Below are positions 1-15,745 of a stretch of DNA of 64,000 nucleotides, one piece after another (the stretch's first letter is position 1; each line of letters starts with the position of its first letter). The stretch is from Frankiales bacterium (GTDB lineage Bacteria; Actinomycetota; Actinomycetes; Mycobacteriales; Jatrophihabitantaceae): the NCBI GenBank assembly GCA_025966315.1, contig JAOPUZ010000051.1, positions 62,001 through 126,000 on the forward strand, read 5' to 3'. The position numbers were made by a program, and so were the translations under genes. The notes beneath the pieces were generated by a model, which was given only the letters and a program-made list of their open reading frames with translations, had not been told where the DNA came from and did no database searches.

Positions 1-1025
1 TTGGTGAGCTGCGAACGCAGCGCGTCGTCGTCGGCAAGTCTTAGGATGGCCGCGCTCAGACCCATGACGTCACCGACATCGCAGAGCAGGGCCGATTCAC
101 CATCCACGGCAAAGTCGTCAACGCCACCGTTTCGAGTGCTGACCAGTGCGGCGCCGCAGGCCATGGCCTCGATGGACGGGAAGCCAAATCCCTCGCTCCG
201 GCTCGCGCAGAGGAAGATACTGGCTCCGTTGTAGAGGTCGGCCACCTGAGCACCGATTGGCTTGCGAACGTAGTCGATGAACTTTGGCAGCACGGCCGGA
301 CGAGCAGCGCCGCCGAAAGCCACCAGTTCGATGTCAGGACGCTGCTCATGCACAATCCGCAACGTCTCGATGGATTCCTTTAGACCCTTGACGGGTGCCT
401 CGTGGGACAGGAAGGCAACGCGCGGCGGCCGCGACGCGATCGGACGCTTGACGCGAAAGGTGTCATGGTCGATGCCGTTCGCTGCGATATGCAACCGATC
501 GGGCGACACGCCGAGCTGCAACCCGCGCTGGTAAAGGGACTCCGACACCACGACGGTGTCGATGGGCAGCCGCCAGGTGGCATCGACCCGATCCGCCGGC
601 CCGGCCCACACTTCATAGGCCTGAATTAGCTGCAGATGCGCCGCACCATCGGGGGGGCGATTCGCCAGGAATTCATTCGTCAGCCAATACGTACCGATTC
701 TGAGATCGGCCGCTGGCAGCGTCGTCCGCTCATCGAAATTGGCGACGAATTGCATACGAACCCGAGGGTCGATAGGCATCCAGGACACCCGACGGGTGAG
801 ATTGCCGGCACGCAGGTCGCGAACCTTCGCCCGGGCCAGACCCTCGAGGCGACCGGCGACACCGGGTCGGCAGCTAAGCGAATGAACGACGGAGACCAGA
901 TATCCCCGTGCGGCAAGGGCATTGGCATGTTCGTAGTACGTTCGTGCCCCACCACCCGGAAGGCGGGCCAGCGTGGGCGCGAGGATCGAGATACGTTCGG
1001 TTGCTGACGATGTCGACTGCGTCAT
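1..1025 (-). CDS. Glycosyltransferase family 4, GT-B fold (C-terminus cut by window edge)
   Basis: Translation from the ATG at 1025 stays open for 341 codons to the left edge, so the C-terminus is missing. The N-terminus has the Rossmann-like entry of GT-B enzymes (a beta strand, then LPGGGARTYYEHANAL). The donor-site EX7E motif is present as EGFGFPSIE at residues 277-285, followed by EAMACGAALVSTRNGG, typical of GT4 enzymes using nucleotide sugars. No membrane segment is seen, so it is probably cytosolic or peripheral. It is the outermost gene of the exopolysaccharide locus visible here. Donor and acceptor cannot be predicted. No clear Shine-Dalgarno precedes the ATG. Confidence 0.85.
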   Translation of the reverse strand, partial: MTQSTSSATERISILAPTLARLPGGGARTYYEHANALAARGYLVSVVHSLSCRPGVAGRLEGLARAKVRDLRAGNLTRRVSWMPIDPRVRMQFVANFDERTTLPAADLRIGTYWLTNEFLANRPPDGAAHLQLIQAYEVWAGPADRVDATWRLPIDTVVVSESLYQRGLQLGVSPDRLHIAANGIDHDTFRVKRPIASRPPRVAFLSHEAPVKGLKESIETLRIVHEQRPDIELVAFGGAARPAVLPKFIDYVRKPIGAQVADLYNGASIFLCASRSEGFGFPSIEAMACGAALVSTRNGGVDDFAVDGESALLCDVGDVMGLSAAILRLADDDALRSQLT

Positions 1026-1104
1026 AGCGACCGTGAACAGGCGGCGGTAATGCGGACTCCCCGGTAAGCGGAAACGCTGCTAGCGCGAGACTACTTTGCT
1101 TTGC

Positions 1105-1506
1105 CTACTCGGTTGCCGTGGACTCGTCGTCGCGCTTGGCGCGCATCTTCGAGGCCGCGATCGCTCCGGCACCGAGCACGGTCGCCGCAATGCCCGCGGC
1201 GGTGACGATCGAAACGTCGGATCCGGTGCTGGCCAGACCGCCAGCGTTCGTGCCCGACGCGGGTGCAGCGGCTACCTGCTGGCTCGCGGCATCGACGCCG
1301 ATGTTCGGACCTCTGGTACCTGAATTCGATGATGCCGGCGGGGCACTGGGCGACTCGGCGTGCGCCGGCGTCATCGAGAGCACCGAAACGAGGGGGACGG
1401 TCCATGCGACGGCGGCACCGGCAACGGCACCCCGCTTGAGCAGCGTCCGCCGGCTCAGGCCGTCGATGGCTTGCACTTCCTCGGTCTCTCGCGGTTCGTT
1501 ACCCAT
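1105..1506 (-). CDS. Small Tat-exported surface protein with LASTG sorting-like tail
   Basis: This 133-residue protein has a twin-arginine signal: SRRTLLKRG with RR at 19-20, a hydrophobic stretch, and an AHA cleavage site at about residue 50. The mature part (51-90) is low-complexity Ala/Ser/Pro/Gly. It is followed by LASTG at 91-95, a hydrophobic segment (about 97-118) and a basic tail KMRAKRDDE. That layout resembles LAxTG substrates of class E sortases in actinobacteria; no sortase gene lies in the window. A GGGGA Shine-Dalgarno precedes the ATG. It is divergent from the PqqD-like gene. The function is unknown. It could be a cell-wall-anchored peptide scaffold or simply a short wall protein. 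Confidence 0.7.
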   Translation of the reverse strand: MGNEPRETEEVQAIDGLSRRTLLKRGAVAGAAVAWTVPLVSVLSMTPAHAESPSAPPASSNSGTRGPNIGVDAASQQVAAAPASGTNAGGLASTGSDVSIVTAAGIAATVLGAGAIAASKMRAKRDDESTATE

Positions 1507-1666
1507 GTTTTCCCCAAAGTATTGGCGCCAGATCGTCCTACCAGGACGTGTTGTTGGTGTTAGCTTAGGCGTCGATCACAGATCACGCCATCCTTACATG
1601 CAAACTTTTCCGAAATAGTCCTCACGTCCGGGCATGCAGCCAGATCCCGGGCGATGCTCAGTTCCG

Positions 1667-1672
1667 TATACT
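1667..1672 (+). promoter_or_regulatory. -10 hexamer TATACT for a leaderless start
   Basis: TATACT ends exactly 6 bases before the ATG at 1679 and no Shine-Dalgarno is present, so transcription probably starts at or next to the A of the ATG. This favours the 1679 start over the in-frame ATG at 1634. Confidence 0.6.
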
Positions 1673-1678
1673 CCGCTT

Positions 1679-1963
1679 ATGAGCGACCGATATGCGGCCC
1701 AGCCGGGCATCCGGAGCGAACCGCTCGAGGACGGCATCTGCCTCTACAACGTGCGTGACGAACAGGTACTCGTACTGAACCGGACCGCGAGCGATGTGTG
1801 GTCACTGATCGCCGATCAGCGCGATGTGGACTTTGTCTGCTCGACGCTGGCCCAGCGGTACCAGGCCGATCTCGAGGATGTGCGCCGCGACGTCCTCGGC
1901 GTTCTGAGCGAGCTGGCCGACGTGGGTTACCTGCGGATGGTCGATGACTCCGCACCATCCTGA
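1679..1963 (+). CDS. PqqD family peptide-binding chaperone-like protein
   Basis: This is a 94-residue PqqD-like protein. The motifs are the strand GICLYNVRDEQVLVLNRTAS, the helix DVWSLI, and the C-terminal pair DVLGVLSELADVGYL. PqqD-type domains are the RiPP recognition elements that hold a leader peptide for a modifying enzyme, and they also occur beside HPr-kinase-like proteins in polysaccharide and lasso-peptide loci. The start is set at ATG 1679 by a -10 hexamer 6 bases upstream; an earlier ATG at 1634 would place the promoter inside the gene. The kinase-like gene follows after 12 bases, so the two are co-transcribed. No radical SAM, B2 protease or lasso cyclase gene is visible nearby. 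Confidence 0.85.
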   Translation: MSDRYAAQPGIRSEPLEDGICLYNVRDEQVLVLNRTASDVWSLIADQRDVDFVCSTLAQRYQADLEDVRRDVLGVLSELADVGYLRMVDDSAPS

Positions 1964-1975
1964 TCTGGGCGCTGC

Positions 1976-2752
1976 ATGACGGTGGTCCGGCCTTTGTCAT
2001 TCAGCCTGCTCGGCGTCCACGTCACCATCACCGGTCGTGCGGACCAGCTGGATCGCCTCGCCGGTAACTTCGCAGATCTGGTCGGTGGCGACCTCGTGCC
2101 CCCGACCGCGCAGGTCGAGATCGAATTGTCGGACACTGACGAGGCGTCGCAAGCGCTGTCCGAGCTGACGCGGGCTCTGGTGCAGAACTCGCCGCTGCTG
2201 TGTATCCACGCCGCGGTGGTTGCTCACCCACGGGGCGTGGTCACGATCCCGGGGCACAGCGGATTGGGCAAAACCACGCTTGCAGGGGCGCTCACGCTGG
2301 CTGGCTTCAGTTACCTGTCCGACGAAGCCTTGGCCCTAGATCGTCATTCACTCGCGGTCGCCGCTTTCCCCCGTCCTCTCTCGCTGGCCCCCGATGTCTG
2401 GCCGCTGCTGGGCCTAGCGGCGACACCGGCGCCCGGTGAAATCGAACGCCAGTTTGCCCCACGTCTTTTCGGCTCGGTTGCCGAGTCCCGAGACTGGCCG
2501 ATGGCCGCGCCGCGCGTTACCGATGTCCTGCTCGCCCGGCGCACGGGTGGTGCTGCCGCCATTGTCGCCGGCGAGCAGTCCGTCGCGGTGACGGCCTTGC
2601 TGTCAATGAGCTTCAATCATTACCGGGATCCGTCGAGCAGCCTGCAGACCGTGCTGGATGTGGTTCGGTCCGCCCGCATCTGGCGAGCGACGTACTCCGA
2701 CGCACTCGAACTTGCGCGACTGGTTCGGGAGCACTTCAGCCAGCTGGCGTAG
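1976..2752 (+). CDS. HPr kinase/phosphorylase-like P-loop protein
   Basis: This 258-residue protein has an HprK C-terminal-type fold: LLCIHAAVVA, then Walker A GHSGLGKT at residues 93-100, then the strand YLSDEALAL corresponding to the second acidic motif. It lacks the N-terminal DRTGG-like domain of true HPr kinases, and no HPr or PTS gene is nearby, so classic carbon-catabolite control is unlikely. Relatives co-occur with PqqD-like proteins and family-5 nucleotidyltransferases. In some lasso-peptide clusters a kinase of this kind phosphorylates the peptide. By analogy it may phosphorylate a peptide or a sugar; the substrate is unknown. It ends 14 bases before the convergent nucleotidyltransferase gene. 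Confidence 0.8.
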   Translation: MTVVRPLSFSLLGVHVTITGRADQLDRLAGNFADLVGGDLVPPTAQVEIELSDTDEASQALSELTRALVQNSPLLCIHAAVVAHPRGVVTIPGHSGLGKTTLAGALTLAGFSYLSDEALALDRHSLAVAAFPRPLSLAPDVWPLLGLAATPAPGEIERQFAPRLFGSVAESRDWPMAAPRVTDVLLARRTGGAAAIVAGEQSVAVTALLSMSFNHYRDPSSSLQTVLDVVRSARIWRATYSDALELARLVREHFSQLA

Positions 2753-2766
2753 CGACAATCCGTCGC

Positions 2767-3969
2767 TCAACCGGACTCTGCGGTGGCCACCTCCGCCTGG
2801 TATCGCCGACGAGCGTGGTCATCCGGCACCGGGTGCAGCGGGCTCCGAACGTCGTTCGGGTCCTGCAGCGGTGAGGACACCCGCGTCTGTGGCGCACCAG
2901 ATCTAACGAAGGCAGAGGCGTGGCGCGCAAATTCGACCATGGAGCGCGACACTGACGGCCGGGTCGACCTCGCGAAAGAACGCGCGAGCGCCGGTTGGTC
3001 CGGGTATTCGGACAGTGGACTGAGCCGGTCGATCAACTGGGCCGACAATTGCCAGCCGACACCGACCCCCATGGCGCGATAACCGCTCCGGCCGGCCGGC
3101 GTGGCCAGCCATCGGTGCGCGCGCGACAGGACCAGCGCCAGCGGCAGCCCGGCGCGGGCCGCCGCCGCCCGCTCGGCCACGCCCGTCCAGTCGCTGACGA
3201 CGGACGCCGCGAGACCTACGTCGAGCAACCACCCCAGCCTGCAGGCACCTGACAGCGCTGCATGCACGGCAAGGTGGACCAATTGATCGTCAGCGCTGAG
3301 CACGGGCAATCCTGATGGCAGCTGCCGACGCCGCTTGAGCAGTACGTCACTGGGCATCGGAAAGCTGCGGCGCAAGACGGGGTTGTTCATCAGGTGCCAA
3401 TGCACGTCGAACAGGCCCCCGGTGGGCGAACGAAAGCGAAGCTCGCCGGGCATGGTAGCGGCGGCGAGTGGCCAATTGACGTCAATCAGCTGCCACCGCC
3501 GAGCCTCCAATGCCGCGGTCAGTTCAGCGAACCGGCTCGGCGCCACCAACACATCGATGTCGACACCGAAGCGCCACGCCGGGCTCGGATACAGACTCTC
3601 CGCGACCGCCTGGCCCTTGACGGCGCACCACGGCACGGCCAACTCGTCGGCGACGCTCCCGAATGCCTCTAGTTCGGCCCGTGCCTTCGCCCCAGTGGCC
3701 ACGAACTTGACCCGCTGCAGGGCGGCCGACGACCACACGTCTTGCTTCGGGGCAACGGCGGCGATCCACGGTTCGACGCCATGCCGACGACTGAGTTCGA
3801 TAAAGGGCTGCACGTCTGAATCCGGCAGCTGCCTCAGCTGATCGACGGCCCGTGTCGGGTCCACGAGCCCGTCGGCGAGTACAGCGGCGAGGCGGTGGAG
3901 GCTCGCCTTGGCCGGAACCGAACGTCCGGCCCCGACGCTTCGCCGCTGAACCGAACCAATCTGGTTCAT
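2767..3969 (-). CDS. Nucleotidyltransferase family protein (NTP_transf_5 type)
   Basis: This 400-residue protein has the family-5 nucleotidyltransferase signature: WCAVKGQAVAESLYP, the metal-binding pair in RFGVDIDVLV, and the later FDVHWHL strand. These proteins (PF14907-like) are common in exopolysaccharide and some RiPP loci, typically with PqqD and HprK-like partners, and their reaction is poorly defined. The ATG overlaps the stop of the upstream glycosyltransferase in an ATGA, so the two are translationally coupled. The C-terminal 60 residues are basic and probably disordered. It may add a nucleotidyl or sugar-phosphate group to a peptide or glycan; that is inference from family context only. 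Confidence 0.8.
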   Translation of the reverse strand: MNQIGSVQRRSVGAGRSVPAKASLHRLAAVLADGLVDPTRAVDQLRQLPDSDVQPFIELSRRHGVEPWIAAVAPKQDVWSSAALQRVKFVATGAKARAELEAFGSVADELAVPWCAVKGQAVAESLYPSPAWRFGVDIDVLVAPSRFAELTAALEARRWQLIDVNWPLAAATMPGELRFRSPTGGLFDVHWHLMNNPVLRRSFPMPSDVLLKRRRQLPSGLPVLSADDQLVHLAVHAALSGACRLGWLLDVGLAASVVSDWTGVAERAAAARAGLPLALVLSRAHRWLATPAGRSGYRAMGVGVGWQLSAQLIDRLSPLSEYPDQPALARSFARSTRPSVSRSMVEFARHASAFVRSGAPQTRVSSPLQDPNDVRSPLHPVPDDHARRRYQAEVATAESG

Positions 3970-5294
3970 CCCACCGGAGTCCGGGTTCTGATGAAGGCAG
4001 AAAGGGCCGCGTCGTCGTCCAGATCGATGTAGTCGTTACCGCGGGCATCGCGTTTCGCGGCCGAGTTGTCCGTGTGCGTGCCGATGAGATCGCGATCCAG
4101 CAGCGCGCCGAAGACCATCAGGTAGCTGCGTGCTTGCGGCGCCCAGTCCAACTCGGCGCTGACACGGTCCCGTGCCAGCCTGCCGCGACGCTCCCTGTCA
4201 TCGGGATCGGCGAGGAGCTCCGCCCAGGCGTCGGCGAACCCGGCGAGATCGCCGTCGGGCACGTAGATCGCAGCATCGCCACCGGACACCCGGGTCTCGA
4301 CCAAATCGAAACTGACGACGGGAAGGCAGTACGCCATGTACTCCATCGTCTTGTTCATGGTGGACACGTCATTCAGCGGACTTTTGGGATCGGGACACAA
4401 GCCGACATCGGCGCTCGACAAATATTCACCGATCTTGTCCGGTCCGACGCGGCCGGTGAAGGTCACGTAGTCGCCCAACGACAGCTCCAGGACGAGTTCT
4501 TGCAGTTCCGCCAAACAATCGCCGAACCCGAGCAAGGCAAAATGGCAATCGGTGTAACCGCGTTCGTGAACCAGGATCGACATCGCTCGCAACGCCTGAT
4601 CGACACCATCCTGCGGACCCATGATGCCGAGATATACGGCCAGGTGGGCCCGGCCCTGACGGAGCTCAGGGTTGGGCTGGATCGGGCGCATCACCGAGGT
4701 GTCCGGGCCGCTACGAACTACGGTCACGTCTTCGGGTCGGCGGTTTCCGCGGCTGAGGGCGATAGACCGATAGGACTCGTTCGTCGAGATGACCCGGTCA
4801 GCCATCGCGAAAGTGCGGCGTTCCAGCCAGCGGATCACAGCCAGCTGCGCTCGCCCAGCGAGGCCTGTTGGCGTGCCGAACCGCGAAAGGAAGACTTCGG
4901 GATTCAGATCGTGCTGGTCATACACGAACTTCTTGCCGAACGGACGCCACAGCGCGGCGAGCGCCCAGTAGGTGTCCGGCGGATTACAGGCCTGCAGGAC
5001 CGCAAAACCGTCCCGGACGGCAACGAGAATGGACAGCAGCGCGGTGACGATCCAGCAATAGCCGAATTCGATGGCGTAACCGAGCAGGCCGCGGGCCGCG
5101 GGTGGCGGCGGGTACTTGTAGATTCGGACGCCTTCGAGTTCCAGATAGAAGGAGTCGCCCGGTCCCTTCGGGCAGATCACCGAAACGCCCACGCCGGCCG
5201 AGCGCAACGCCAGGCACTCCATCCACACACGGCGGTCGAGCGGCACCGGCAGGTTCTGCACCACGATCAAAACTCGACGTCTGGCCGCGGACAA
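3966..5294 (-). CDS. Glycosyltransferase family 4
   Basis: This 442-residue GT-B protein has the N-terminal motif QNLPVPLDRRVWMECLALRS, typical of bacterial WcaL-like enzymes. It also has DQHDLNPEVFLSRFG, the inter-domain VVRSGPD segment, and a donor-site region with STMNKTMEYMAYCLPVV in place of the usual EGF motif. A hydrophobic segment near residues 75-95 may associate it with the membrane. It transfers an unidentified sugar to a lipid-linked repeat unit. It is followed by the coupled nucleotidyltransferase gene. The last 30 residues are acidic and low in conservation signals. Confidence 0.85.
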   Translation of the reverse strand: MSAARRRVLIVVQNLPVPLDRRVWMECLALRSAGVGVSVICPKGPGDSFYLELEGVRIYKYPPPPAARGLLGYAIEFGYCWIVTALLSILVAVRDGFAVLQACNPPDTYWALAALWRPFGKKFVYDQHDLNPEVFLSRFGTPTGLAGRAQLAVIRWLERRTFAMADRVISTNESYRSIALSRGNRRPEDVTVVRSGPDTSVMRPIQPNPELRQGRAHLAVYLGIMGPQDGVDQALRAMSILVHERGYTDCHFALLGFGDCLAELQELVLELSLGDYVTFTGRVGPDKIGEYLSSADVGLCPDPKSPLNDVSTMNKTMEYMAYCLPVVSFDLVETRVSGGDAAIYVPDGDLAGFADAWAELLADPDDRERRGRLARDRVSAELDWAPQARSYLMVFGALLDRDLIGTHTDNSAAKRDARGNDYIDLDDDAALSAFIRTRTPVG

Positions 5295-5399
5295 GTTTGT
5301 CTCCTATTCAACCAATACAGGCTAATCCGATTACCGATGAGTGTTCCAGGCCGACGATCAGCGGCTGATCATTCGGCGGCCCGACACACCTACCTGTCG

Positions 5400-6140
5400 T
5401 TATGCGGTGGCGAGCGGGCGAACCTCAGCGGCAGCGTGCCCGGGTGTGCTTTCCGTCGGAGACCAGCGCCTGGTGAGACGGGTCGCCGCAAACGTGATGC
5501 CCAATCCCAGAATCAGCGTGATCAACCCGGCCCGCTTGGCACTGCCCTTCTGGTAGTAGATCGGCAGTGGTGCCGGCGGGCTGAGCGATGTCGTGATCAG
5601 AAAACGGTGGGGAACGGTCGAGCCGTTCTGGAGGGTCAGCAGGTCTTGATTGATTTCGGATACCAGGCGGCTTGTGCGCGCATTGACCTCGTCCTGAGTC
5701 GGTGCGACGACCTGGACGTCCAGGTACGGATCGATGAACTGGTTGGCCCATTGGCCACCGGTGTTCGGCAGCTGAACCGAATAGCCGTTGCGAACTCCCT
5801 CACCGACGAGGGTTGCTTCAGCGGTGGCGAGGCGAGGTTGCGGGTCTGGATCGATCATTTTCCCCACCGCACCGGCGACCACGATCATCGAGGCCGGCAC
5901 GTATTGCAGACCGTTCGATTTGTCCAGCTGCGGTGAAACGAATCTGACCTGCACCCTCGTCCAGAAGACGCCGGGCGTCTTCGCCATCCGATAGCTCATG
6001 GCGAAGGTGGCAACCAGCCCGGCAAGGAGGACGACCGCCGTGACCCCGTTCAACTTTCTCCGACGGCGGCCGATCGTAGTATTGCGCGGTTCCGAAGCGG
6101 TAGGAGAGGCATGTGGATGCTCCATCCAGCACCTCTCCAT
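5400..6140 (-). CDS. Wzz-like chain-length determinant membrane protein, no kinase domain
   Basis: This 246-residue protein has two membrane segments, near residues 31-50 (GVTAVVLLAGLVATFAMSY) and near 205-222, around an extracytoplasmic domain. This is the layout of Wzz/polysaccharide co-polymerase proteins, but sequence similarity is weak. No Walker motifs follow the second membrane segment, so it is not a fused BY-kinase. It probably influences polymer length or export with the adjacent Wzz-like and ligase-like proteins. It is divergent from the second Wzz-like gene; the 105-base gap must hold both promoters. The start could be the ATG at 6140 (GGAG 3 bases upstream) or the ATG five codons later. 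Confidence 0.6.
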   Translation of the reverse strand: MERCWMEHPHASPTASEPRNTTIGRRRRKLNGVTAVVLLAGLVATFAMSYRMAKTPGVFWTRVQVRFVSPQLDKSNGLQYVPASMIVVAGAVGKMIDPDPQPRLATAEATLVGEGVRNGYSVQLPNTGGQWANQFIDPYLDVQVVAPTQDEVNARTSRLVSEINQDLLTLQNGSTVPHRFLITTSLSPPAPLPIYYQKGSAKRAGLITLILGLGITFAATRLTRRWSPTESTPGHAAAEVRPLATA

Positions 6141-6245
6141 TCGCTCCGTAGCTTACTCTGGCTTAGCATAGAGCCTACATGCGCCAAGGACACCCCGAGT
6201 TCCACAGCGGGGGGTGGCAAGTTCTGATGTCGGGAGAAGTCGTAC

Positions 6246-6995
6246 ATGTCGTTGTCCAGCATCTGGCGCATCATGCTTCGCCGGTGGTACGTGACCCTGT
6301 TTGGTCTCGTCTTCACTGCCGCCCTGACAGTCGGTGCCGGCATTCTCTCGCCGCCCACTTACGAAGCGGACGCCTCGGTGTTGCTGATCCCGCCGAAAAC
6401 CGCCCAGAGCGTGAACCCGTTCATGGGCCTCGGCGGGTTGCAGGAGGTCGCCGACGTGGTGTCCCGCGCGGCGTCGGATGCCAAGACGACCGACGCGCTG
6501 CTGGCCGCCGGCGGCACCGCGCAATACGCCGTCGGCCGGGACACCAGTTCGACCGGCCCGATCATTCTGATCACCGCGACTGCCGATTCGGCTCAGCAGG
6601 CGCTGCTGTCTGTGAAGTTCCTGGTCGACCGACTCGGCCCCTCGCTGGAGGCCCTGCAGTCCGCTAAGGACGTGCCCCTCGAATCCTTCATCACCCAGTA
6701 CGACCTGTCGTCGGATCAGACCGCCAAAGTCCAGCGCAAAGCACAGTTGCGGTCCTGTATCACCGCTGCAGCGCTCGGGATCCTGTTCACCGTACTGCTG
6801 GTGGCCTTTGCCGAGAAGATTCTCAGACGGCGGGGCGCAGGCAACGAGTCGACCGGCGGCGATCCCTCGACGGCCGACCCGCACGAGAGTCGCTACTCGA
6901 CGACGACCTACCCGGGCAGCGGTGGCGGTAGCCGGAGTCGAGTGGCATCGCGACGCAATCGTCGTGCGACAACTCGTCGTCCTGATCGTGTGTGA
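6246..6995 (+). CDS. Wzz/polysaccharide co-polymerase-like membrane protein
   Basis: This 249-residue protein begins SLSSIWRIMLRRWYVTLFG, the cytoplasmic lead and first membrane segment typical of Wzz domains. It continues with PPTYEADASVLLIPP (the conserved post-membrane strand), a periplasmic-type region with coiled-coil potential, and a second membrane segment at about 170-190. The C-terminal 55 residues are basic and Ser/Arg/Gly-rich, without ATPase motifs. A GGGAGAAG ribosome-binding site precedes the ATG. The stop overlaps the ligase-like gene in TGATG. It probably sets chain length of the polymer built by the neighbouring Wzy-like protein. Confidence 0.78.
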   Translation: MSLSSIWRIMLRRWYVTLFGLVFTAALTVGAGILSPPTYEADASVLLIPPKTAQSVNPFMGLGGLQEVADVVSRAASDAKTTDALLAAGGTAQYAVGRDTSSTGPIILITATADSAQQALLSVKFLVDRLGPSLEALQSAKDVPLESFITQYDLSSDQTAKVQRKAQLRSCITAAALGILFTVLLVAFAEKILRRRGAGNESTGGDPSTADPHESRYSTTTYPGSGGGSRSRVASRRNRRATTRRPDRV

Positions 6996-8413
6996 TGGTG
7001 TCCTCGGGGAGGCGTAGCACCCAGCTCGGTCGCGTGAGGCAGCGCTCGATCATCTCGACGCGCGCACAGACAACGCAAGTCCGCGAAGATGCGTCGCGGA
7101 TACGGATGACCCCAGCTGAGAAGGTCGGTTGGAGCAGCCCAGAGGTTCGCCTGCTGACGTTGTTGATCGTGCTGCTCATCGGCATTCCGTCGCGCCTCAT
7201 ATTCTCCCCACTGGGCAGCGCGGGCACCCCGGCGTTGGTGCTTGGCATGGTCATGTTGGTGCTCTGGCTCGCCGCTCTGATCACCGGTTACATCCGGTAC
7301 GACCATCAGCCGTTGCGCGTGGTCACCTGGCTGTTTCTCGGTGCGGTCATGATCAGCTATGTGGCTGCGACCACACGTCCGATCGACGCGGTCGAGATTC
7401 GCGCGGCCGACCGCGGTCTGATCAGTGTCTTGGGCTGGGTGGGGATCCTGCTGTTCGCCTTGGACGGGCCGCGCAGCCGTGCCGATCTCGATCTCCTGCT
7501 TCGCCGGTTGTGCTGGGCGGGTGGGTTGCAGGGCGTGTTCGGCATCGTGCAGTTCGCTACCGGTCTGCCGCTGACGAACTATCTGGTCATACCCGGTCTC
7601 ACGGTGAACAGCGATCTCGGCAGCGTCATTGGCCGTGATGGGCTGACGCGGCCTGCCGGCACGACGATCCATCCGATCGAGTTCGGGGCCGTTCTCACCA
7701 TGATCCTGCCGATCGCCCTGCACTACGCGCTGCATGATCGGCACCGCAAGCAGGCAGCGCGTTGGTTCCCGGTTGTCGCCATTGCGGCGGCGGTCCCGAT
7801 CTCGATCTCTCGATCGGCGATTCTCAGTGCTGCAGTCGTCCTGCTAATCCTGCTGCCGACCTGGGCGCGGCCGCTGCGCCGACGAGCGTACGCATTCATC
7901 GTGGCGCTCGGGCTGGTGCTCTACGTGACGGTGCCGGGCCTCATCGGCACGCTTACCAGCCTCTTCACCGGAATATCGCAGGACAGCAGCGCCACGTCCA
8001 GAACCGACAGCTACCAACTGGCCACGGAGTTCATTGCTCGGGCCCCGATTTTCGGTCGCGGTTTTCGTACATTTCTGCCGACCTACCGGATCCTCGACAA
8101 CCAGTACCTGGGCTTGGCCATCGAACTCGGCCTCGTAGGTGTCTCGATTTTTCTGATCTTCTTGCTGACGGCCACGTTTGGAAGCATGGCGGTTCGGCGC
8201 GGCAACACCGACCAGTCGACGCGCAGTTTGGGTCAGGCTTTCGCTGCATCGGTCGGTGCCGCCGGCCTGAGCTTCGCTGTGTACGACGCTTTCTCATTCC
8301 CGATGGCAGCGAGCCTGCTCTTTCTCATCGTGGGCTGCTCCGGCGCGCTGCGACGACTCAGTCCCCCGCAGCAACGGCTCCACACCGAGCAACGGTCGAA
8401 GCGCGGCCGCTAA
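6995..8413 (+). CDS. O-antigen ligase / Wzy-type polymerase family membrane protein
   Basis: This roughly 472-residue polytopic protein has 10-12 predicted membrane segments. The Wzy_C-type core is VPISISRSAILSAAVVLL, followed by a large outer loop with RTDSYQLATEFIARAPIFGRGFRTFL and the DNQYLGLAIELGLVG helix, which is characteristic of the O-antigen ligase/polymerase family. It polymerises lipid-linked repeat units or transfers the chain to an acceptor at the outer face of the membrane. I chose ATG 6995, which overlaps the upstream stop (TGATG); a GTG at 6992 is the alternative. The N-terminal 45 residues are basic and cytoplasmic. Confidence 0.85.
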   Translation: MVSSGRRSTQLGRVRQRSIISTRAQTTQVREDASRIRMTPAEKVGWSSPEVRLLTLLIVLLIGIPSRLIFSPLGSAGTPALVLGMVMLVLWLAALITGYIRYDHQPLRVVTWLFLGAVMISYVAATTRPIDAVEIRAADRGLISVLGWVGILLFALDGPRSRADLDLLLRRLCWAGGLQGVFGIVQFATGLPLTNYLVIPGLTVNSDLGSVIGRDGLTRPAGTTIHPIEFGAVLTMILPIALHYALHDRHRKQAARWFPVVAIAAAVPISISRSAILSAAVVLLILLPTWARPLRRRAYAFIVALGLVLYVTVPGLIGTLTSLFTGISQDSSATSRTDSYQLATEFIARAPIFGRGFRTFLPTYRILDNQYLGLAIELGLVGVSIFLIFLLTATFGSMAVRRGNTDQSTRSLGQAFAASVGAAGLSFAVYDAFSFPMAASLLFLIVGCSGALRRLSPPQQRLHTEQRSKRGR

Positions 8414-8423
8414 GCGGACCGCT

Positions 8424-8990
8424 TCAGGCGCCGAGCCGATCGGGTCCGAGTTCTCGCACCTTCTTTGCCGGCACACCCGCGTACAGCGTGCGCGGCTCGC
8501 AGTTTTTCGCGACCACCGCCCCGGCCGCGACGATGGCGCCATCCCCGATGGTGACGCCCGGCAGAATAAGCGCGCCGGCACCGATCCAGCATCGATTGCC
8601 GATATGCACGCCACGGCCGACGGGATTCGGATCCATCAGGCCGTCTGCGCCCAGCTCGTGGGTGGAGGTCGTGATCGTCACGTGCATCGCGATCGCGCAG
8701 TCCTCGCCGACATGGATGGGACCGAACGCGTCGAAGGTGCAATCGACGTTGACGAACGTGCCGCGGCCGACACGGATGCCGCCATTGCCGGTGAACCGGC
8801 ATCGTTCGGAGACGTTGTGCGTCCTGATGTCCAGCGCCGCACTGCGATAGATCAGATTGCGCAGTAGCCGAGGAGTGACCGGCGAGCCGCCGATCGCATT
8901 CACCCATAAAGTGCGGGGCATCCAGCTGAAGTCCTGCTGGGTGATCCGGACCGCTCGCGCCAAGGCGGGGCGTCGCGCCAACAGTCCCAC
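8424..8990 (-). CDS. Hexapeptide-repeat O-acetyltransferase (WcaF/maltose acetyltransferase-like)
   Basis: This 188-residue protein is built of left-handed beta-helix hexapeptide repeats, for example IHVGEDCAIAMHVTI, VHIGNRCWIGAGALILPGV and TIGDGAIVAAGAVV. The catalytic-type His is in TSTHELG, and the end AGVPAKKVRELG is typical. It transfers an acetyl group from acetyl-CoA to a hydroxyl of a sugar, here presumably an exopolysaccharide residue. It starts with GTG, and no strong ribosome-binding site is seen. It is convergent with the ligase-like gene, with a 10-base gap. Confidence 0.85.
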   Translation of the reverse strand: MGLLARRPALARAVRITQQDFSWMPRTLWVNAIGGSPVTPRLLRNLIYRSAALDIRTHNVSERCRFTGNGGIRVGRGTFVNVDCTFDAFGPIHVGEDCAIAMHVTITTSTHELGADGLMDPNPVGRGVHIGNRCWIGAGALILPGVTIGDGAIVAAGAVVAKNCEPRTLYAGVPAKKVRELGPDRLGA

Positions 8991-9043
8991 TGACGACCAC
9001 CAATCACTCGACCAGGGGCAGCAATGACCGCGAGCTGCGACAG

Positions 9044-9997
9044 CTATTTTGAGGGCGGCCCGGTGGGTGCGCCGTCGGTGTATTTGTTAGATCCTAGCGT
9101 CGTCTCGGGGGGCGCGGTAATGGCCTCGACCTGCCAACCGCGCGAGAAGGTATTGCCGGTGATTGCCACCGGCGCGCTCACACCCTCACCGTAGATACAG
9201 ACTCCGTACGAGGTCTGCTCCTGGTTGCGATTGCCGCTGACGAACAGGTTGTCGATGACCTGATACGAACTGATCTTGGGCTGCCCGGCGAGCCACTGTA
9301 CGAACACATTGCAGTTGTTGCCCGTCTCGATGCGGTTGTGCGAAATCAGCACGTTCGCCCCGCCGGTGGTCTGTATGCCGTCCGAGTGGGCCAGCGGAAT
9401 GTCGCCCATCGACAGATCGTGCACCCACGAATCCTCGAGGACAGTGCCGCCGTCTAGCCGCAAACCATCGCTGGTGTTGTGAATATTCAGTCGCTTCAGG
9501 ACGTTCTTCGCGTCCGAGCCGGCGGACAACACACCCGTAGCCTTGCCGAACGTCTTGCCGTCGGCCTGACCGCCGATCTCGGTGTCGGTCACGGTGGTCG
9601 AGCTGGCGATGGCCAGGCACCAATCGTTCTCGCCGGTGCATCGGATGCGGGTGTTCTTGACCTGCAGGCCCGGAAATTTGCTTTGCAAGCTACCGTTGAT
9701 GTCAAGGCCGTCGATTACCGCGTTCGGCGCCGTTATCTGAACCCACCCGTACTTATTCCAGCCCCAACCGGGGCCACTGCTCACATCCTGCGGAACCCGC
9801 TCCAGCGAAACACCAGCTGGTACGCCGGTGTTCGCTGAAGCGGGAAACGTACTAACCGCAGTTTGTTTCTGCTCGGTCTGCTTCTGCTCGGTCGCGGCGC
9901 GGTGGGTATTGCGCCAAATCACCGAGCCCACGATGACCGCGATGCCGATGGCAACTATCGCAGCACCCAATTGGTACTTTCGGAAGCCGCGGCGCAC
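9044..9997 (-). CDS. Membrane-anchored right-handed beta-helix protein (paralogue 1)
   Basis: This 317-residue protein has an N-terminal membrane anchor (residues 11-27, AAIVAIGIAVIVGSVIW) and a TEQKQTEQKQT linker. A domain of short beta-helix rungs follows: AVIDGLDING, LQVKNTRIRC, NVLKRLNIHNTSDGLRLDGG, VLEDSWVHDLSMGDIP, HSDGIQTTGGANVLISHNRI. Such folds occur in polysaccharide lyases, C5-epimerases and phage-like binding proteins; the catalytic type is not evident. Conserved Cys pairs suggest an extracytoplasmic disulfide. It shares most rungs with the gene at 10048-11241. GTG 9997 is the start because TAAGAT lies 6 bases upstream. It probably binds or trims the exported polysaccharide. Confidence 0.75.
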   Translation of the reverse strand: MRRGFRKYQLGAAIVAIGIAVIVGSVIWRNTHRAATEQKQTEQKQTAVSTFPASANTGVPAGVSLERVPQDVSSGPGWGWNKYGWVQITAPNAVIDGLDINGSLQSKFPGLQVKNTRIRCTGENDWCLAIASSTTVTDTEIGGQADGKTFGKATGVLSAGSDAKNVLKRLNIHNTSDGLRLDGGTVLEDSWVHDLSMGDIPLAHSDGIQTTGGANVLISHNRIETGNNCNVFVQWLAGQPKISSYQVIDNLFVSGNRNQEQTSYGVCIYGEGVSAPVAITGNTFSRGWQVEAITAPPETTLGSNKYTDGAPTGPPSK

Positions 9998-10003
9998 CCG
10001 ATC

Positions 10004-10009
10004 ATCTTA
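10004..10009 (-). promoter_or_regulatory. -10 hexamer TAAGAT for a leaderless start
   Basis: On the minus strand TAAGAT is followed by six bases (GATCGG) and then the GTG at 9997. No Shine-Dalgarno is present. Confidence 0.55.
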
Positions 10010-10047
10010 GCGGCGCGATCAGCGTCCGGTTACCGGATTGGCTGGTG

Positions 10048-11241
10048 TCAGTTGCTCATGACCGCAATCGCCGTTCCATCGGTGTAAACATCGCCCGATA
10101 CCTTTGAGCCAGCCGGCAGGGTCGCCGGACCTACCTGGTATCCGCGTACGAACTTGTTGTTCGTCAGGGTTACGCCCGCGACGTTGGGCGAGTAGGCACA
10201 GACGCCGTACGAGGTCTGCTCACCGTTGCGGTTACCGGGTGTGAAGGTGTTCCCGCTGATGACGTAGTTGCTGATGGCTGCGTTGCCACTCAGCCACTGC
10301 AGGAACACGTTGCAGTTGTTGCCACTTTCAAAGCGGTTGTTGGACACTGTCACGTTGGCGCCACCGGTGGACTGGATCCCGTCCGAGTGTGCTCCGGGGA
10401 TTTCACCCATGCTCAGGTTGTGAATGTAGGAGTTCGTCAGAGTCGTGCCACCATCGATCCGCAGACCATCGCTGGTGTTGTGGATGTCGACGGAGTCCAA
10501 GACGTTGCCGGCCGTCGAACCACCGGACCAGACGCCGATCGCGGACACGAACGCGGTGCCACTGGCACCGCCGCCGATCTCGGTGTGCGAGAGCTTCGAA
10601 TGGCTACCGAGGCTGATGCACCATTGGGTTTCACCAGTGCAACGGATTCGCGTGTTGACGACGGTCAAACCAGTCGGCGAGCCCTGTACCGGACCGTTGA
10701 TGTCCAGACCACTCAAGGTCACGTTCGTACCGGTGACCGCTAGTGCGCTACCCGTCCAGGTCCAGCCGGGGCCCGATTTGGCCTGACCAGGAACGCTGGT
10801 CAGAGGCGTACCCGCGGTCACACCAGCCGTTCCGGTCGGCGCGGTTGGGGCCGGGGTGGTCTTGGTTGGCGTTGGCGCCGGGGTGGTCTTGGTTGGCGTT
10901 GGCGCCGGAGTGGTCTTGGTCGGCTGAGGGGTTGAAGTCGTCTGTGACGGCTTCGGCGCGACGGTCGTTGTGCTCACCGACGGTGTCGCAGAGGGGGAAT
11001 GTGACCACGTTCCCCAGTGACGGTGCCGGCGGGTTGATGAGGATGCCGTCGCAGTTGGGCTCGCCGACACACTTACCAGCTGCGCGGATTGGGGCGAGTC
11101 ATGGTTGGTTGTTGCGGAGGATTGCCCCGAGAAGGCAACGACTCCGACGCCGCAGGCCAAAGCCGACGTCGCCACGGCGATCATGATGGACGGCAGCCGC
11201 ATTTTCGGATGTTTCACGATCTCAAGTAGTCGATGTGCCAT
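10048..11241 (-). CDS. Secreted right-handed beta-helix protein with Pro/Thr linker (paralogue 2)
   Basis: This 397-residue protein has a signal or anchor segment at about 17-36. A Ser/Thr/Pro-rich region with three KTTPAPTPT units comes next, then a beta-helix domain closely matching the neighbouring paralogue: NTRIRCTGETQWCISLGS, VDIHNTSDGLRIDGGTTL, HSDGIQSTGGANVTVSNN, SGNNCNVFLQWLSG. The Pro/Thr linker is a likely O-mannosylation target; a Pmt enzyme is encoded at 53040-54770. AGGAGAG precedes the ATG. The two paralogues are 50 bases apart, which suggests tandem duplication. The substrate is unknown; polysaccharide binding or processing is the best guess. Confidence 0.75.
   Translation of the reverse strand: MAHRLLEIVKHPKMRLPSIMIAVATSALACGVGVVAFSGQSSATTNHDSPQSAQLVSVSASPTATASSSTRRHRHWGTWSHSPSATPSVSTTTVAPKPSQTTSTPQPTKTTPAPTPTKTTPAPTPTKTTPAPTAPTGTAGVTAGTPLTSVPGQAKSGPGWTWTGSALAVTGTNVTLSGLDINGPVQGSPTGLTVVNTRIRCTGETQWCISLGSHSKLSHTEIGGGASGTAFVSAIGVWSGGSTAGNVLDSVDIHNTSDGLRIDGGTTLTNSYIHNLSMGEIPGAHSDGIQSTGGANVTVSNNRFESGNNCNVFLQWLSGNAAISNYVISGNTFTPGNRNGEQTSYGVCAYSPNVAGVTLTNNKFVRGYQVGPATLPAGSKVSGDVYTDGTAIAVMSN
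10845..10922. repeat. In-frame 27-bp tandem repeat (KTTPAPTPT)
   Basis: About three near-identical 27-base units encode the Pro/Thr linker of the second beta-helix protein. Units differ by single bases. Length change would alter only linker length. Confidence 0.75.
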
Positions 11242-11513
11242 GTAAGAAAACTCTCCTCATGTTGCGCAGCCCGTACGGAGCTTGTGAGCACCGCGAATAA
11301 TTAACGGAATGCAAACGGAATGTTGTTCGGCGGGGATCTTCAGTTGACGAGGGGCCATCACGGGGTCCGTGAATTAACGGGTTAGCGGCAACTTGGAATC
11401 CCGCCAGAGATTAGCCGACCAACTGCCCTACCGAAGAATTGACTTCGGCCGCAGTAAAACTATTGATAAGATAACGGTTAAATAAACGTGAGGGCGTTCG
11501 AATTCACGTCTCC

Positions 11514-11535
11514 TTTGACCGAATCGTCGGTCAAA
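11514..11535. promoter_or_regulatory. Perfect palindrome TTTGACCGA-N4-TCGGTCAAA
   Basis: Nine-base arms match perfectly with a 4-base centre (ATCG). It lies 19 bases upstream of the CRP-like site, in the promoter region of the flippase operon. It is a candidate operator for an unidentified dimeric regulator. Confidence 0.5.
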
Positions 11536-11554
11536 ACGGTGGGCCTGCCGACCC

Positions 11555-11578
11555 AAACTGTGATCTAGCTCACAGTTT
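11555..11578. promoter_or_regulatory. CRP/GlxR-like operator TGTGA-N6-TCACA
   Basis: The core TGTGATCTAGCTCACA (11559-11574) matches the TGTGA-N6-TCACA consensus of CRP/GlxR cAMP-receptor regulators. The symmetry extends to 9-base arms (AAACTGTGA / TCACAGTTT). It lies about 230 bases upstream of the flippase start and 314 bases upstream of the divergent beta-helix gene, so it could control either. Confidence 0.65.
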
Positions 11579-11803
11579 GACGGGGATCACTTCATCGAAC
11601 CCGGCTTCAACCTCGGCGGGCGAGCCGGACAAGTCGCGCAATTTGCCTCTCAGATTCGCCAGATCTGCCCTAACAGCCCAGATTTTGCGGCCAAAGGTGC
11701 TCAGTTCCTCACCTGACCGTACGATAAGCAAACATGAAGCGCCCCCGCAGTCGCGGGGCGCACCGAGCCGCAGTGGGAGCCTGACCGCCATGCCCGTCGC
11801 GCG

Positions 11804-13450
11804 ATGATTAACGCACGGCGTCGGCGACAGCGCGCACAGGCCCGACACAGCGCGGATCAGGCTCCGGAGGCTGGCCTCTCGCATCGCGTACGACGGGGCG
11901 CAATGTGGAGCGCGGCCAGCACGCTAACGATGCGGTTAGCCAACATCTCGATCATGGCCGTCGTTGCTCGTACCCTTTCGCCGCGCGATTTCGGCGTTTT
12001 TGCGGTAGCTTTGACCGTTCACGCCATCGTCTCGAGCATCGCCGAACTGGGCGTGGCGTCCTGCTTGATGCGCGCGGATGTCGATCCGGACGAGGTGGCA
12101 CCAACCGTCGCGGCCGTTTCCTTGATCAGCAGCTCGATTTTGGCGGCCGGGATGTTTATCTTCGCGCGTCCACTGTCGGCGGCGCTGGGCAGCGTGGATG
12201 CGGCCGGCCCAATGCGAGTGATGTCGCTCGTCGTCCTTTTGGTCGGCATATTCGCCGTACCTGGCGCAGAGCTTGCGCGCGAGTTTCGCCAAGACAAACA
12301 ATTCGCGGCGAATCTGCTGGGCTTCGCCGTGGCAAATACCCTGTTACTGGTATTGGCGACGCACGGCGGCGGCGCGATGTCATTCGCTTGGTCGCGTGTT
12401 GCGGGTCAGTTCGTTATTGGCACCGTAATGACGTTAATGGTCGATAAACTTTATGTTCCGCGGATCAATCGTAAACAGCTGAAGTTCGTGCTGTCTTTTG
12501 GCCTGCCGTTGGCGGGCGCCAATCTGCTCAACTACGCGTTAATGAACACGGACTACGTCTTCATCGGAAATCTGCTCGGCCCGGTCCAGCTCGGCATCTA
12601 CATGTTGGCCTTCAACATTTCGAGCTGGTCGAGCTCCATGATGTCGACCATGCTCAACTCGATCGCCATGCCGGCCTTCTCACGAGTGAAGCAGGACGCG
12701 GCTCAGCTGGAGCGGGCCCTGGCCAGGGGGACAGTCGCGCTCGCCTTTGTGGCCGTACCGATCTGCACGCTCACCTCGACGCTGGCCAAACCCCTGGTCC
12801 GTACGGTCTACGGCGGTCAATGGGAAGCAGCGGCATCGGTACTGGCCATCCTCTCCACGTACGGCGCGATCTCGGTGTTCTGCCTGCTACTGGCCAATGC
12901 ACTGTCCGGCATGGGCAAAACCAACCTGCTCCTGATCACCCAGCTGCCGTGGATCGGGTGCCTAATCCCGGCCATGGCTATCGGGATCAGGATAAACGGA
13001 ATCGTCGGCGCAGCCTGGGCTCACATCCTGATCGTTTGCCTCGTGGCATTACCGGTGTACCTGGTCATGTTGAAACGCGCAGCTACGCTGCGACTGTTGT
13101 TGGTGGTGCGCGCGGTGCTCCCCTTGTTGTTCGCGGGATTGTTGGCCGGGGTCGCCGCCTATGCGGTGTCGCACTCCGTTCACGGTTCACTGCTGCAACT
13201 GCTTGCAGGCGGTTTCACCGGTTCCGCCGTCTATCTTGTCTTTGCCGCGCCCCTGGCCCAGGACGCTATAGGCAGCTCTCGACGCTTACCCGGCAGGCTA
13301 GCCGCGCCGCTGAACTCCTACAGCCGGCGATTGCGCATTCTCGGACTCGGGTTACCGGTGTCCGTGCCCGACCCATCGACCCTGCCGGTCGATGGCACCG
13401 AGATCACTCTCATGAACCATTCGCTGGTTGATCTGGAAGGGCGTCTGTGA
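11804..13450 (+). CDS. Wzx-type polysaccharide flippase (MOP superfamily)
   Basis: This 548-residue polytopic protein has 12-14 membrane segments. The entry motif of oligosaccharide flippases is present: RRGAMWSAASTLTMRLANI, then ARTLSPRDFGVFAVALT. The middle segment INYALMNTDYVFIGNLLGPVQLG-type is seen in parts (NTDYVFIGNLLG), and SSMMSTMLNSIAMPAFSRVK is typical of the family. It moves undecaprenyl-linked repeat units across the membrane. The last 50 residues are soluble. The stop overlaps the next gene as GTGA, giving a three-gene flippase-glycosyltransferase operon. No Shine-Dalgarno is obvious at ATG 11804. Confidence 0.88.
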   Translation: MINARRRRQRAQARHSADQAPEAGLSHRVRRGAMWSAASTLTMRLANISIMAVVARTLSPRDFGVFAVALTVHAIVSSIAELGVASCLMRADVDPDEVAPTVAAVSLISSSILAAGMFIFARPLSAALGSVDAAGPMRVMSLVVLLVGIFAVPGAELAREFRQDKQFAANLLGFAVANTLLLVLATHGGGAMSFAWSRVAGQFVIGTVMTLMVDKLYVPRINRKQLKFVLSFGLPLAGANLLNYALMNTDYVFIGNLLGPVQLGIYMLAFNISSWSSSMMSTMLNSIAMPAFSRVKQDAAQLERALARGTVALAFVAVPICTLTSTLAKPLVRTVYGGQWEAAASVLAILSTYGAISVFCLLLANALSGMGKTNLLLITQLPWIGCLIPAMAIGIRINGIVGAAWAHILIVCLVALPVYLVMLKRAATLRLLLVVRAVLPLLFAGLLAGVAAYAVSHSVHGSLLQLLAGGFTGSAVYLVFAAPLAQDAIGSSRRLPGRLAAPLNSYSRRLRILGLGLPVSVPDPSTLPVDGTEITLMNHSLVDLEGRL

Positions 13451-14541
13451 CCGTTCAACTCACGTCTCGCCGGAAGGTGCAGGCCATGCCGACCGGGCGC
13501 CGGCCGGTGGTAAGCGTGGTCGTACCCTGCTACAACTACGGCCACTACCTGCCGGAGTGTATCGCCAGCATCGTGGAGCAGCCGGACGTCGACACCGACG
13601 TGCTCATCATCGACGACGCCTCCCCCGACGGCAGCGGAAAGGTCGCTCAGTCACTCGCTGAACAGCACCCGAATGTTCGTGCGCTCGTCCACGAGCAGAA
13701 CATGGGACACATCGCAACGTACAACGAGGGCTTGCCGACGATGACCGGCGACTACCTGGTCCTGCTGTCAGCCGACGACCTGCTTGCCCCCGGATCGTTG
13801 GGCCGGGCCACTGCTCTCATGGAATCGCATCCGTCCGTCGGTTTGGTTTACGGAAACCCGCTGACTTTCGACGACGTGCTCCCGCCCGCCTCAACCACCG
13901 TCCGCAGCTGGTCCCTGTGGTCGGGGCACGACTGGGCCCGAAGGCAGTTCTCGCGCGGCATGAGCATCGTCTACTCGCCTGAGGCCGTCGTTCGGACGAA
14001 GGTGCACGCCGAGGTCGGCTACTACAAACCGGAACTTCCCCACTCGGGCGACTTGGAGCTGTGGTTACGAATCGCGTCGGTAGCCGATGTCGGACGGGTG
14101 AACGGGCCGGACCAAGCCTACCGTCGCGAGCACGCGAACAGCATGATGCACACGACGTACGGCACCGTTCTCATCGATCTGAAAACCCGGGACGAGGCGT
14201 ACGCGGAGTTCCTGGCCACCGCGGGCCGCGGGTTGCCCGACGCGGAGAAACTCCGCGCGCTGTCGCACCGCCGAATGGCCGACGAGGCGCTGGACTGGAC
14301 TTGTCTCTTGCTCACCAAGCCCGAATGCACCGATGCCGATCGGGCCGAGATCGCAGAATGCGTGGCGTTTGCCCGAACCATCGACGCGGGCTACGCGTCG
14401 TTGCGATCTTGGCATGAGTATCAACTGCTCTCCACGCCGCACTCATCCACGCTGGCGCCGGCGCTGCGCGCTGGGCACCGCCTGCGCCGCGACGTCAAAG
14501 GCCGATTAAAATGGCAACGCTGGCATCGGATGGGCCTGTGA
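13447..14541 (+). CDS. Glycosyltransferase family 2 (GT-A fold)
   Basis: This 364-residue protein has the GT2 N-terminus SVVVPCYNYGHYLPECIASI at about residues 22-41. The nucleotide-binding IIDDASPDGSG follows, then the acidic LLSADDLLAPGSL (DXD-like) and the acceptor-side HSGDLELWLRIA. It is an inverting enzyme using a nucleotide sugar at the cytoplasmic face. GTG 13447 overlaps the flippase stop (GTGA), so it is translationally coupled. Its C-terminal 120 residues are helical and unclassified. Confidence 0.88.
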   Translation: MTVQLTSRRKVQAMPTGRRPVVSVVVPCYNYGHYLPECIASIVEQPDVDTDVLIIDDASPDGSGKVAQSLAEQHPNVRALVHEQNMGHIATYNEGLPTMTGDYLVLLSADDLLAPGSLGRATALMESHPSVGLVYGNPLTFDDVLPPASTTVRSWSLWSGHDWARRQFSRGMSIVYSPEAVVRTKVHAEVGYYKPELPHSGDLELWLRIASVADVGRVNGPDQAYRREHANSMMHTTYGTVLIDLKTRDEAYAEFLATAGRGLPDAEKLRALSHRRMADEALDWTCLLLTKPECTDADRAEIAECVAFARTIDAGYASLRSWHEYQLLSTPHSSTLAPALRAGHRLRRDVKGRLKWQRWHRMGL

Positions 14542-15695
14542 CCCGGGTCGGCCTGCTCTACCCGTATCCGAATCCCGTTTCGCCCCAGAGTTGGTCTGGC
14601 ACGCCGGCGGGGCTGGCCGCTGGCCTCGTGGACAACGGCTTCGAGCTCGTCCCGATCGGGGCCGTTCTCCCGGTGGGTATCCGACAGACGATCGCCGGAC
14701 TGTCACGCGTCACTGGCCGGCGCGGACCGATCGCCAACCGCGGCCCGTTAGCCAGCAAAGCGCGGACACTCGAGGTGGCACGACAGATTCGTAAGGCCGG
14801 CCACCTCGACGCGCTGATCGCCATGGACACCGAGGCGTACCGCCTGGACCAGGTTCTGCCGGAACACCTCCCGGTGGCCACCTACGACGACGGCACCTTC
14901 GCGCTCTTCGCGCAGCATCCCGACTCGGACATACGCCGGGACGGGATCCCGCAGGCCGAGCTAGACCGTTGGATCGCGCGGCAAGGCATCGGCTGCCGTA
15001 CGGCGACCGTGTGCTGTCTCAGTACCGGTTGGGCCGCCCGTTCGGTCGTGGCGGACTACCACGTGCCGGCCGACCGGGTTCGAGTTGTGGGCATGGGTCA
15101 CCGGCCGCGGATTGGCGCCAACGGACGACGAGGCGAGCGAGATTTCAGCGCTCCCCGCTTCCTCTTCGTCGGCGTCGAATGGGGCCGCAAAAACGGTGAC
15201 GCCGTGCTGCGAGCGTTCACCGAGCTACATAGGACTCATCCGTCAGCTCGCCTAGACCTGGTCGGAGATCATCCCCTCGTTGTCCAAGAGGGCGTGCACG
15301 ACCACGGGTTGCTTCGTCGCGACGATCCGGCGGCGCAGGCATTGCTGGATGATCTCTTCGCCCAGGCGACCGCGTTCGTCCTGCCGAGTCGGTTCGACCC
15401 GTCACCGATCGCGTACCTCGAGGCTGCCTCGGCCGGCCTACCCGTGATCGCCACGACCGAAGGCGGCGCTGGCGAGCTGCTCGGCGATGGCGCGCTCACC
15501 GTTTCCCCTGATGACGACGGGGCAATCTTAGCCGCCATGCAACGATTGACCGATCCAGCCGTTGCCGCTCGCCTGGGCGCGGAGGCGGCCGGCCGCGCGG
15601 CCGAGTCAACGTGGGCGAACGTGTCCCGCCGAATCGTCGACGCCCTGACCAGGGGACAGCCTAAGACCAACGGTGGCGCTAGCCACAGTCGTTGA
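14511..15695 (+). CDS. Glycosyltransferase family 4-like
   Basis: This is a GT-B enzyme of up to 394 residues. The N-terminal strand RVGLLYPYPNP begins a Rossmann domain. The C-terminal donor domain contains FLFVGVEWGRKNGDAVLRAF, LDLVGDHPLV, and PSRFDPSPIAYLEAASAGLPVIATTEGGAGELL, where the conserved Glu of the donor motif is in YLEAASAG. Two starts are plausible: ATG 14511 (AAAGG upstream, 31-base overlap with the previous gene) and GTG 14538, which overlaps the upstream stop as GTGA. The GTG would give the shorter N-terminus usual for the family and repeats the coupling seen at 13447. Confidence 0.82.
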   Translation: MATLASDGPVTRVGLLYPYPNPVSPQSWSGTPAGLAAGLVDNGFELVPIGAVLPVGIRQTIAGLSRVTGRRGPIANRGPLASKARTLEVARQIRKAGHLDALIAMDTEAYRLDQVLPEHLPVATYDDGTFALFAQHPDSDIRRDGIPQAELDRWIARQGIGCRTATVCCLSTGWAARSVVADYHVPADRVRVVGMGHRPRIGANGRRGERDFSAPRFLFVGVEWGRKNGDAVLRAFTELHRTHPSARLDLVGDHPLVVQEGVHDHGLLRRDDPAAQALLDDLFAQATAFVLPSRFDPSPIAYLEAASAGLPVIATTEGGAGELLGDGALTVSPDDDGAILAAMQRLTDPAVAARLGAEAAGRAAESTWANVSRRIVDALTRGQPKTNGGASHSR

Positions 15696-15729
15696 TCCTG
15701 ACCAGCTTGTTGATGCTGGCGAGGATCAA
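15692..15729. terminator. Bidirectional terminator-like hairpin
   Basis: A two-tier stem, TTGATCCT/AGGATCAA outside and CCAGC/GCTGG inside, lies between convergent genes and overlaps the stop codon of the upstream glycosyltransferase. No long T tract follows, as is common in actinobacteria. Confidence 0.55.
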
Positions 15730-15745
15730 ACAACCTTGTCCCGTG

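Follow-up and report, generated by a model that had tools for sequence, protein, structure and literature searches.

In a polysaccharide locus of an actinobacterial genome, we identified four genes that, on balance, we read as a Tat-coupled peptide-modification module in which a Tat protein is the precursor and would be modified before export. The window (the whole 64,000-nucleotide stretch of DNA that was analyzed) comes from a genome of 4.56 Mb in 77 contigs. The quartet lies entirely within window positions 1105 to 3969 and encodes a 133-amino-acid (aa) Tat/LASTG protein, a PqqD protein, a kinase of the HprK fold, and an NTP_transf_5 protein (NT5). The initial annotation had described these four adjacent genes, and all were found in place, with profile matches to TIGR01409, PF05402, TIGR04352, and PF14907. 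The Tat gene is divergent from the PqqD and kinase genes, which are 12 bases apart, and the NT5 gene is convergent with that pair. The features of the locus are as follows.

1105..1506, minus strand: Tat-signal, LASTG-tailed 133-aa protein, the proposed precursor or client (TIGR01409 Tat signal, 18.4 bits; cut-off, 16.7)
1222..1236, minus strand: LASTG codons (residues 91 to 95), an LAxTG-type sorting motif, read from the sequence
1387..1404, minus strand: WTVPLV codons (residues 35 to 40), an RRE-type WxxPx[VI] motif in the Tat signal, with function assigned by comparison with PMC13381572
1447..1452, minus strand: twin arginine codons (residues 19 and 20) of the Tat signal
1679..1963, plus strand: PqqD family peptide-binding protein (RRE) (PF05402, 49.7 bits; cut-off, 23.4), with a possible upstream start at 1634
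1976..2752, plus strand: HprK/PEPCK-fold kinase with P-loop GHSGLGKT at residues 93 to 100 (TIGR04352 HprK_rel_A, 57.2 bits)
2767..3969, minus strand: NTP_transf_5 nucleotidyltransferase, NT5 (PF14907, 93 bits; cut-off, 31.2)
3966..5294, minus strand: GT4 glycosyltransferase, overlapping the NT5 gene by 4 bases; a GT4 gene also adjoins NT5 in locus L058
5400..6140, minus strand: small membrane protein, exopolysaccharide context
6246..6995, plus strand: Wzz-like protein, exopolysaccharide context, with a homologue near the quartet in L058
6992..8413, plus strand: Wzy_C polymerase, exopolysaccharide context, with a homologue near the quartet in L058

PqqD, the kinase, and NT5 each had one match in the genome, and all three matches were in the quartet cluster. 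A profile of the Tat leader likewise had a single match in the genome at E ≤ 0.01, the Tat/LASTG gene of the cluster. The same polysaccharide locus also contains a gene for a 2001-aa protein with a signal-like N terminus (window positions 21406 to 27411, minus strand).

The kinase and NT5 have the expected folds and catalytic residues. The solved structures nearest to the PqqD profile are the lasso RREs TbiB1 and TfuB1. The predicted model of the kinase (mean pLDDT, 84) matches PEPCK and HprK structures and has the P-loop fold. The initial annotation had pointed to a Walker A sequence without the HprK N-terminal domain; GHSGLGKT was indeed present, and we detected no match to the HPrK N-domain in this protein. 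Of the families HprK_rel_A and HprK_rel_B (TIGR04352 and TIGR04355), the kinase matches TIGR04352 in the region around its P-loop, but far below the curated cut-off of 200 bits; none of the 396 genomes in our phylum sample had a match above it. His78, the P-loop, and Asp116 are conserved in relatives. Together, His78, P-loop residues 93 to 100, and Asp116-Glu117 match the H-K-D-D catalytic set of lasso kinases (PMC9266682, PMC10368454), with Glu117 replacing the second Asp. NT5 qualifies as an NTP_transf_5 protein by its score above the gathering threshold, its nucleotidyltransferase fold, and its Asp pair, D137/D139. The folds nearest to its predicted model (mean pLDDT, 85) are MenT1, LnuA, and ANT(2''). 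Across 16 aligned NT5 sequences, K118, R133, D137, D139, and H190 are invariant, and D188 is found in at least 90%.

The initial annotation had reported that no precursor-like peptide was visible. This was incorrect, as the Tat protein itself carries an RRE-type motif. Its WTVPLV sequence, like the general form WxxPx[VI], equals the [Y/W]xxPx[L/V/I/F/A] motif that is bound by the RREs of lasso peptides and linear polyphosphorylated peptides (LPP), as determined by pull-down, NMR, and structures; W in the aromatic position is typical of paeninodins (PMC13381572). W35 is at position -16 relative to a predicted cleavage site after AHA (assigned by reading AxA, without a signal predictor). The linked leaders have W in 17 of 18 cases; all 18 have P and, at +5, an aliphatic residue. 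Ser or Thr is enriched at W+16/+17 (19 of 28 leaders), an observation made post hoc; this distance approximates that between the aromatic residue and Ser3 in LPP and Bsf. The linked Tat proteins have unrelated C-terminal parts, and hence no common modified core is visible. A search of small open reading frames (ORFs) in window positions 1 to 9000 found no other RRE-type motif. Kinase loci are not the only ones with WxxP in a Tat signal: the Tat signals of two ~500-residue proteins, probably phospholipases (L117 and L127), read WAAPV/IIEKAY and have no known PqqD neighbor, and WxxP alone is therefore no proof of RRE binding. We conclude that the Tat signal is probably the leader of a precursor; that PqqD binds it is an inference.

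LAxTG is the motif of class E sortases. In the window protein, LASTG is followed by a hydrophobic stretch and then a K/R tail. The genome encodes TatC and four sortases, three of which exceed their cut-offs (one in class E and two in class F); the class E sortase (L039) scored 254 bits against a cut-off of 160. The Tat/LASTG protein thus fits a class E sortase substrate, having the LAxTG motif, the hydrophobic stretch, and the basic tail in a genome that encodes a class E sortase. Anchoring itself is inferred. We also considered LASTG as a feature shared among the linked proteins and rejected it, since, on iteration, a profile strayed to sortase-tailed or secreted proteins of any kind, and the linked Tat proteins are mostly without LASTG. 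The initial annotation needs correcting in this respect: the conserved part is the Tat signal, RR...WxxPx[VI]xxL, and not LASTG.

We determined whether Tat leaders of this type accompany the kinase in other genomes. Kinase loci were collected by a phylum search with TIGR04352 and were chosen irrespective of Tat. In a genome of the same order (L058), the order Tat/LAYTG-PqqD-kinase-NT5-GT4 is kept, with Wzz and Wzy genes nearby. Tat proteins adjoin the kinase in L058, L062 to L064, L066, L068 to L070, L072 to L074, and L089. Across the kinase-picked loci and the window, 11 of 12 ORFs with a strict RR...WxxPx[VILM] Tat signal lie less than 2 kb from the kinase (binomial P = 3e-5; the count includes the window itself, and the 2-kb zone makes up about one third of the sequence). 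Hence, the quartet is more than a chance arrangement. We then searched 396 genomes with a leader profile, A1, built from 17 RR...WxxP leaders, and its strong matches were mostly beside kinases or in kinase-bearing genomes. A1 was built mostly from kinase-linked loci, and unseen loci and genomes are therefore useful tests. Two loci found by the leader profile alone (L131 and L133) have PqqD-PqqD-kinase next door. A locus picked by NT5 only (L137) has the order NT5, 62-aa Tat-WxxP peptide, PqqD, kinase. Three strong leader matches were obtained in 28 previously unused genomes; two, in G455 and G477, are 372 and 465 bp from a kinase, and the third is at a contig end. Over 66 genomes, 7 of 10 with the kinase had the leader, versus 2 of the 56 without it (P = 5e-6; based in part on training data). 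For the 28 unseen genomes alone, P = 0.045.

Eight sampled congeners lack the kinase, which is also rare in the family. In two loci of the same family, L059 and L060, we saw no Tat-WxxP gene; both contigs end close by. An alignment of 13 kinase sequences, intended for a genome scan, had no conserved stretch, and the scan was run with NT5, which yielded 16 loci. A plasmid search with NT5 gave no match. PqqD and the kinase are fused in L067 and L073. The L067 fusion (9356 to 11316) adjoins NT5 and a secreted protein with an LPRTG tail but no WxxP, possibly another type of client. L073 and L130, which are on one contig (C32 of G350), have two kinases, and two Gly-rich Tat-WxxP proteins lie ~35 kb apart.

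The initial annotation had proposed that an exopolysaccharide locus contains a system for modifying a peptide or surface protein, possibly the Tat/LASTG protein, and had named two outcomes that would refute this: a client unlinked in relatives and a trio always found with a lasso cyclase. Neither outcome was observed. Tat proteins with differing C termini adjoin the kinase across Actinomycetota, including genomes outside the profile, and the Tat-linked loci other than L063 have no cyclase. Neighborhood conservation and the lasso-type RRE motif support the proposal, although the chemistry on the client is inferred.

PqqD, HprK-like kinase, and NTP transferase genes are those of paeninodin-type clusters (PMC9266682, PMC10368454), and the locus could be a decayed or partial cluster of this type that has lost its precursor, B2 protease, and cyclase. 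The window shares with paeninodin- and pseudomycoidin-type clusters the PqqD protein (B1), the two enzymes, the kinase residues H, K, D, and D, and, with paeninodins, a WxxP leader. It differs in that no cyclase, B2, or lasso core is nearby, and the lasso-linked kinases lie on the opposite side of the kinase tree. As the initial annotation had noted for B2 and cyclase, we found no match to B2, cyclase, or an ABC exporter in the interval between 10 kb before and 30 kb after the window start, whereas the same B2 and cyclase queries do detect these genes in lasso loci. A YxxP precursor was also not found near the window, and with cyclase, B2, and precursor all missing there, the reading as a lasso cluster was rejected. 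B2 and cyclase are absent from the other Tat-linked loci as well, except L063, which has both a lasso cluster (7518 to 19866; YAAPTITEWG precursor, cyclase, B2, and ABC) and a Tat-WxxP module, with separate kinases. The L063 kinase adjoining the Tat gene is on the Tat-linked side of the kinase tree, and the one at 19207 is on the lasso side. In this tree, built from longer rows with Tat and lasso labels assigned by hand, one branch (98/92) splits Tat-linked from lasso-linked kinases and is present in 200 of 200 bootstrap trees; the labels need one change, and 0 of 500 shuffles were as low. The window kinase groups with the Tat-linked kinases of L058 and L137 (99/97). An earlier tree from shorter rows, from which a length filter had removed the window row, gave no clear split, and the clean split therefore rests on the second build. 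The kept catalytic residues also speak against decay. We regard decay from a lasso cluster as very improbable and, for this neighborhood, as largely refuted.

The Tat/LASTG protein could instead be a mere neighboring surface protein of the polysaccharide locus, with the trio modifying an unlinked peptide or an exopolysaccharide intermediate. Sorted surface proteins are frequent in such loci, LASTG-like tails are not a conserved feature of the linked proteins, and in some kinase loci (L059, L060, and L077) no Tat protein is visible. Against this, the observed linkage of Tat protein and kinase spans many families and extends to unseen genomes, small ORFs in window positions 1 to 9000 offer no further RRE-type motif, and the sole leader match in the genome is the Tat/LASTG gene. 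We consider this explanation unlikely, while leaving it some weight. A slightly slimmer chance attaches to WxxP being a feature of Tat signal peptides, related to the translocon or to cleavage and unconnected to PqqD, with linkage reflecting only co-regulation. The WAAPV/IIEKAY signals of L117 and L127 fit such a feature, but most weak, generic Tat matches lack W..P. Few strong leader matches are on a contig that lacks a kinase, and most of these have a kinase elsewhere in the genome or are at contig ends. Moreover, a Y version of the motif is present in precursors of the lasso type encoded next to related kinases (L063, L076, L093, and L138, and also NT5 loci L141 and L143).

The nearest known system is that of the LPP of Bacilli (PMC13381572, 2026). 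Both combine a discrete RRE with an HprK-like kinase and an NTP transferase in a polysaccharide locus, with no need for a cyclase. A further shared feature is a precursor of 35 to 200 aa that combines a conserved N terminus and a variable C terminus with an aromatic-xxP motif. The Y of LppA, like the W of the window protein, is at -16, compared with W-15 in the paeninodin type. The LPP leader is removed by a signal-peptidase-type enzyme, and the leader of the window protein is a signal peptide. However, the LPP leader consensus is YxxPxVLxHQxIxFETxxS (PMC13381572); the window leader instead has W and a Tat signal, and some clients end in LAxTG. LPP loci, which are reported to be restricted to Bacillota, encode an archaeal-type signal peptidase of their own as well as an MsbA-like transporter (PMC13381572). 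Neither gene is in the cluster: the two matches to archaeal-type signal peptidase I (TIGR02228) are on contigs C20 and C29 and not C54, and no ABC exporter occurs in the interval searched. Although the module would work like LPP, we do not count it as LPP, because these two core genes are missing from the cluster. Among the papers listed by our literature search, none combined Tat signal peptides with RiPPs, and none dealt with the HprK-related kinase or HPr-rel-A.

For the Tat-coupled module that we favor, we propose the following pathway, inferred without biochemistry. The signal peptide would have two jobs, with RR serving the Tat translocon and W35-T-V-P-L-V serving PqqD. PqqD would hold the precursor in the cytoplasm and present it to the kinase, which would phosphorylate a Ser or Thr early in the mature chain; the best candidate is Ser52 in AHA|ESPSAPP. 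NT5, perhaps with the coupled GT4, could then add a nucleotidyl or sugar group onto the phosphate. The roles of kinase and NT5 are proposed by analogy to pseudomycoidin, where Ser is phosphorylated by PsmK and the presence of hexose on this phosphate requires PsmN (PMC9266682). The modified protein would be exported by Tat and its signal cut after AHA, and a Ser/Pro/Ala-rich peptide of ~40 residues may be attached through LASTG to the wall by a sortase, serving the exopolysaccharide. Tat proofreading chaperones of the TorD/DmsD type bind Tat signals and delay export until maturation ends, as PqqD would in our reading. PqqD differs in fold, being an RRE, and a proofreading-like function for it is inferred. 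It is conceivable, if doubtful, that the Tat signal peptide doubles as a RiPP leader, that PqqD, as an RRE-based chaperone for Tat proofreading, holds back a sortase-anchored peptide while the kinase and NT5 add a phospho-sugar, and that the peptide then tethers exopolysaccharide to the cell wall.

The modification trio has been known until now from lasso and linear phosphopeptide pathways, and here the export signal of a small surface peptide appears to carry its docking motif. If our reading is correct, RRE/kinase/NTP-transferase pathways would extend from secreted small peptides to Tat-exported, partly wall-anchored proteins, and one leader would serve two recognition systems, PqqD and Tat. 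PqqD/kinase/NTP-transferase trios in polysaccharide loci, unexplained so far, gain a concrete, testable client, and RR...WxxPx[VI] beside an HprK-type kinase provides a search motif for more cases. The question of what phosphopeptides do in capsule loci, raised by LPP and paeninodins, could become addressable here, as the client is predicted to be at the cell surface. The module would be a route to decorate a cell-surface peptide ahead of export, inside a polysaccharide gene cluster.
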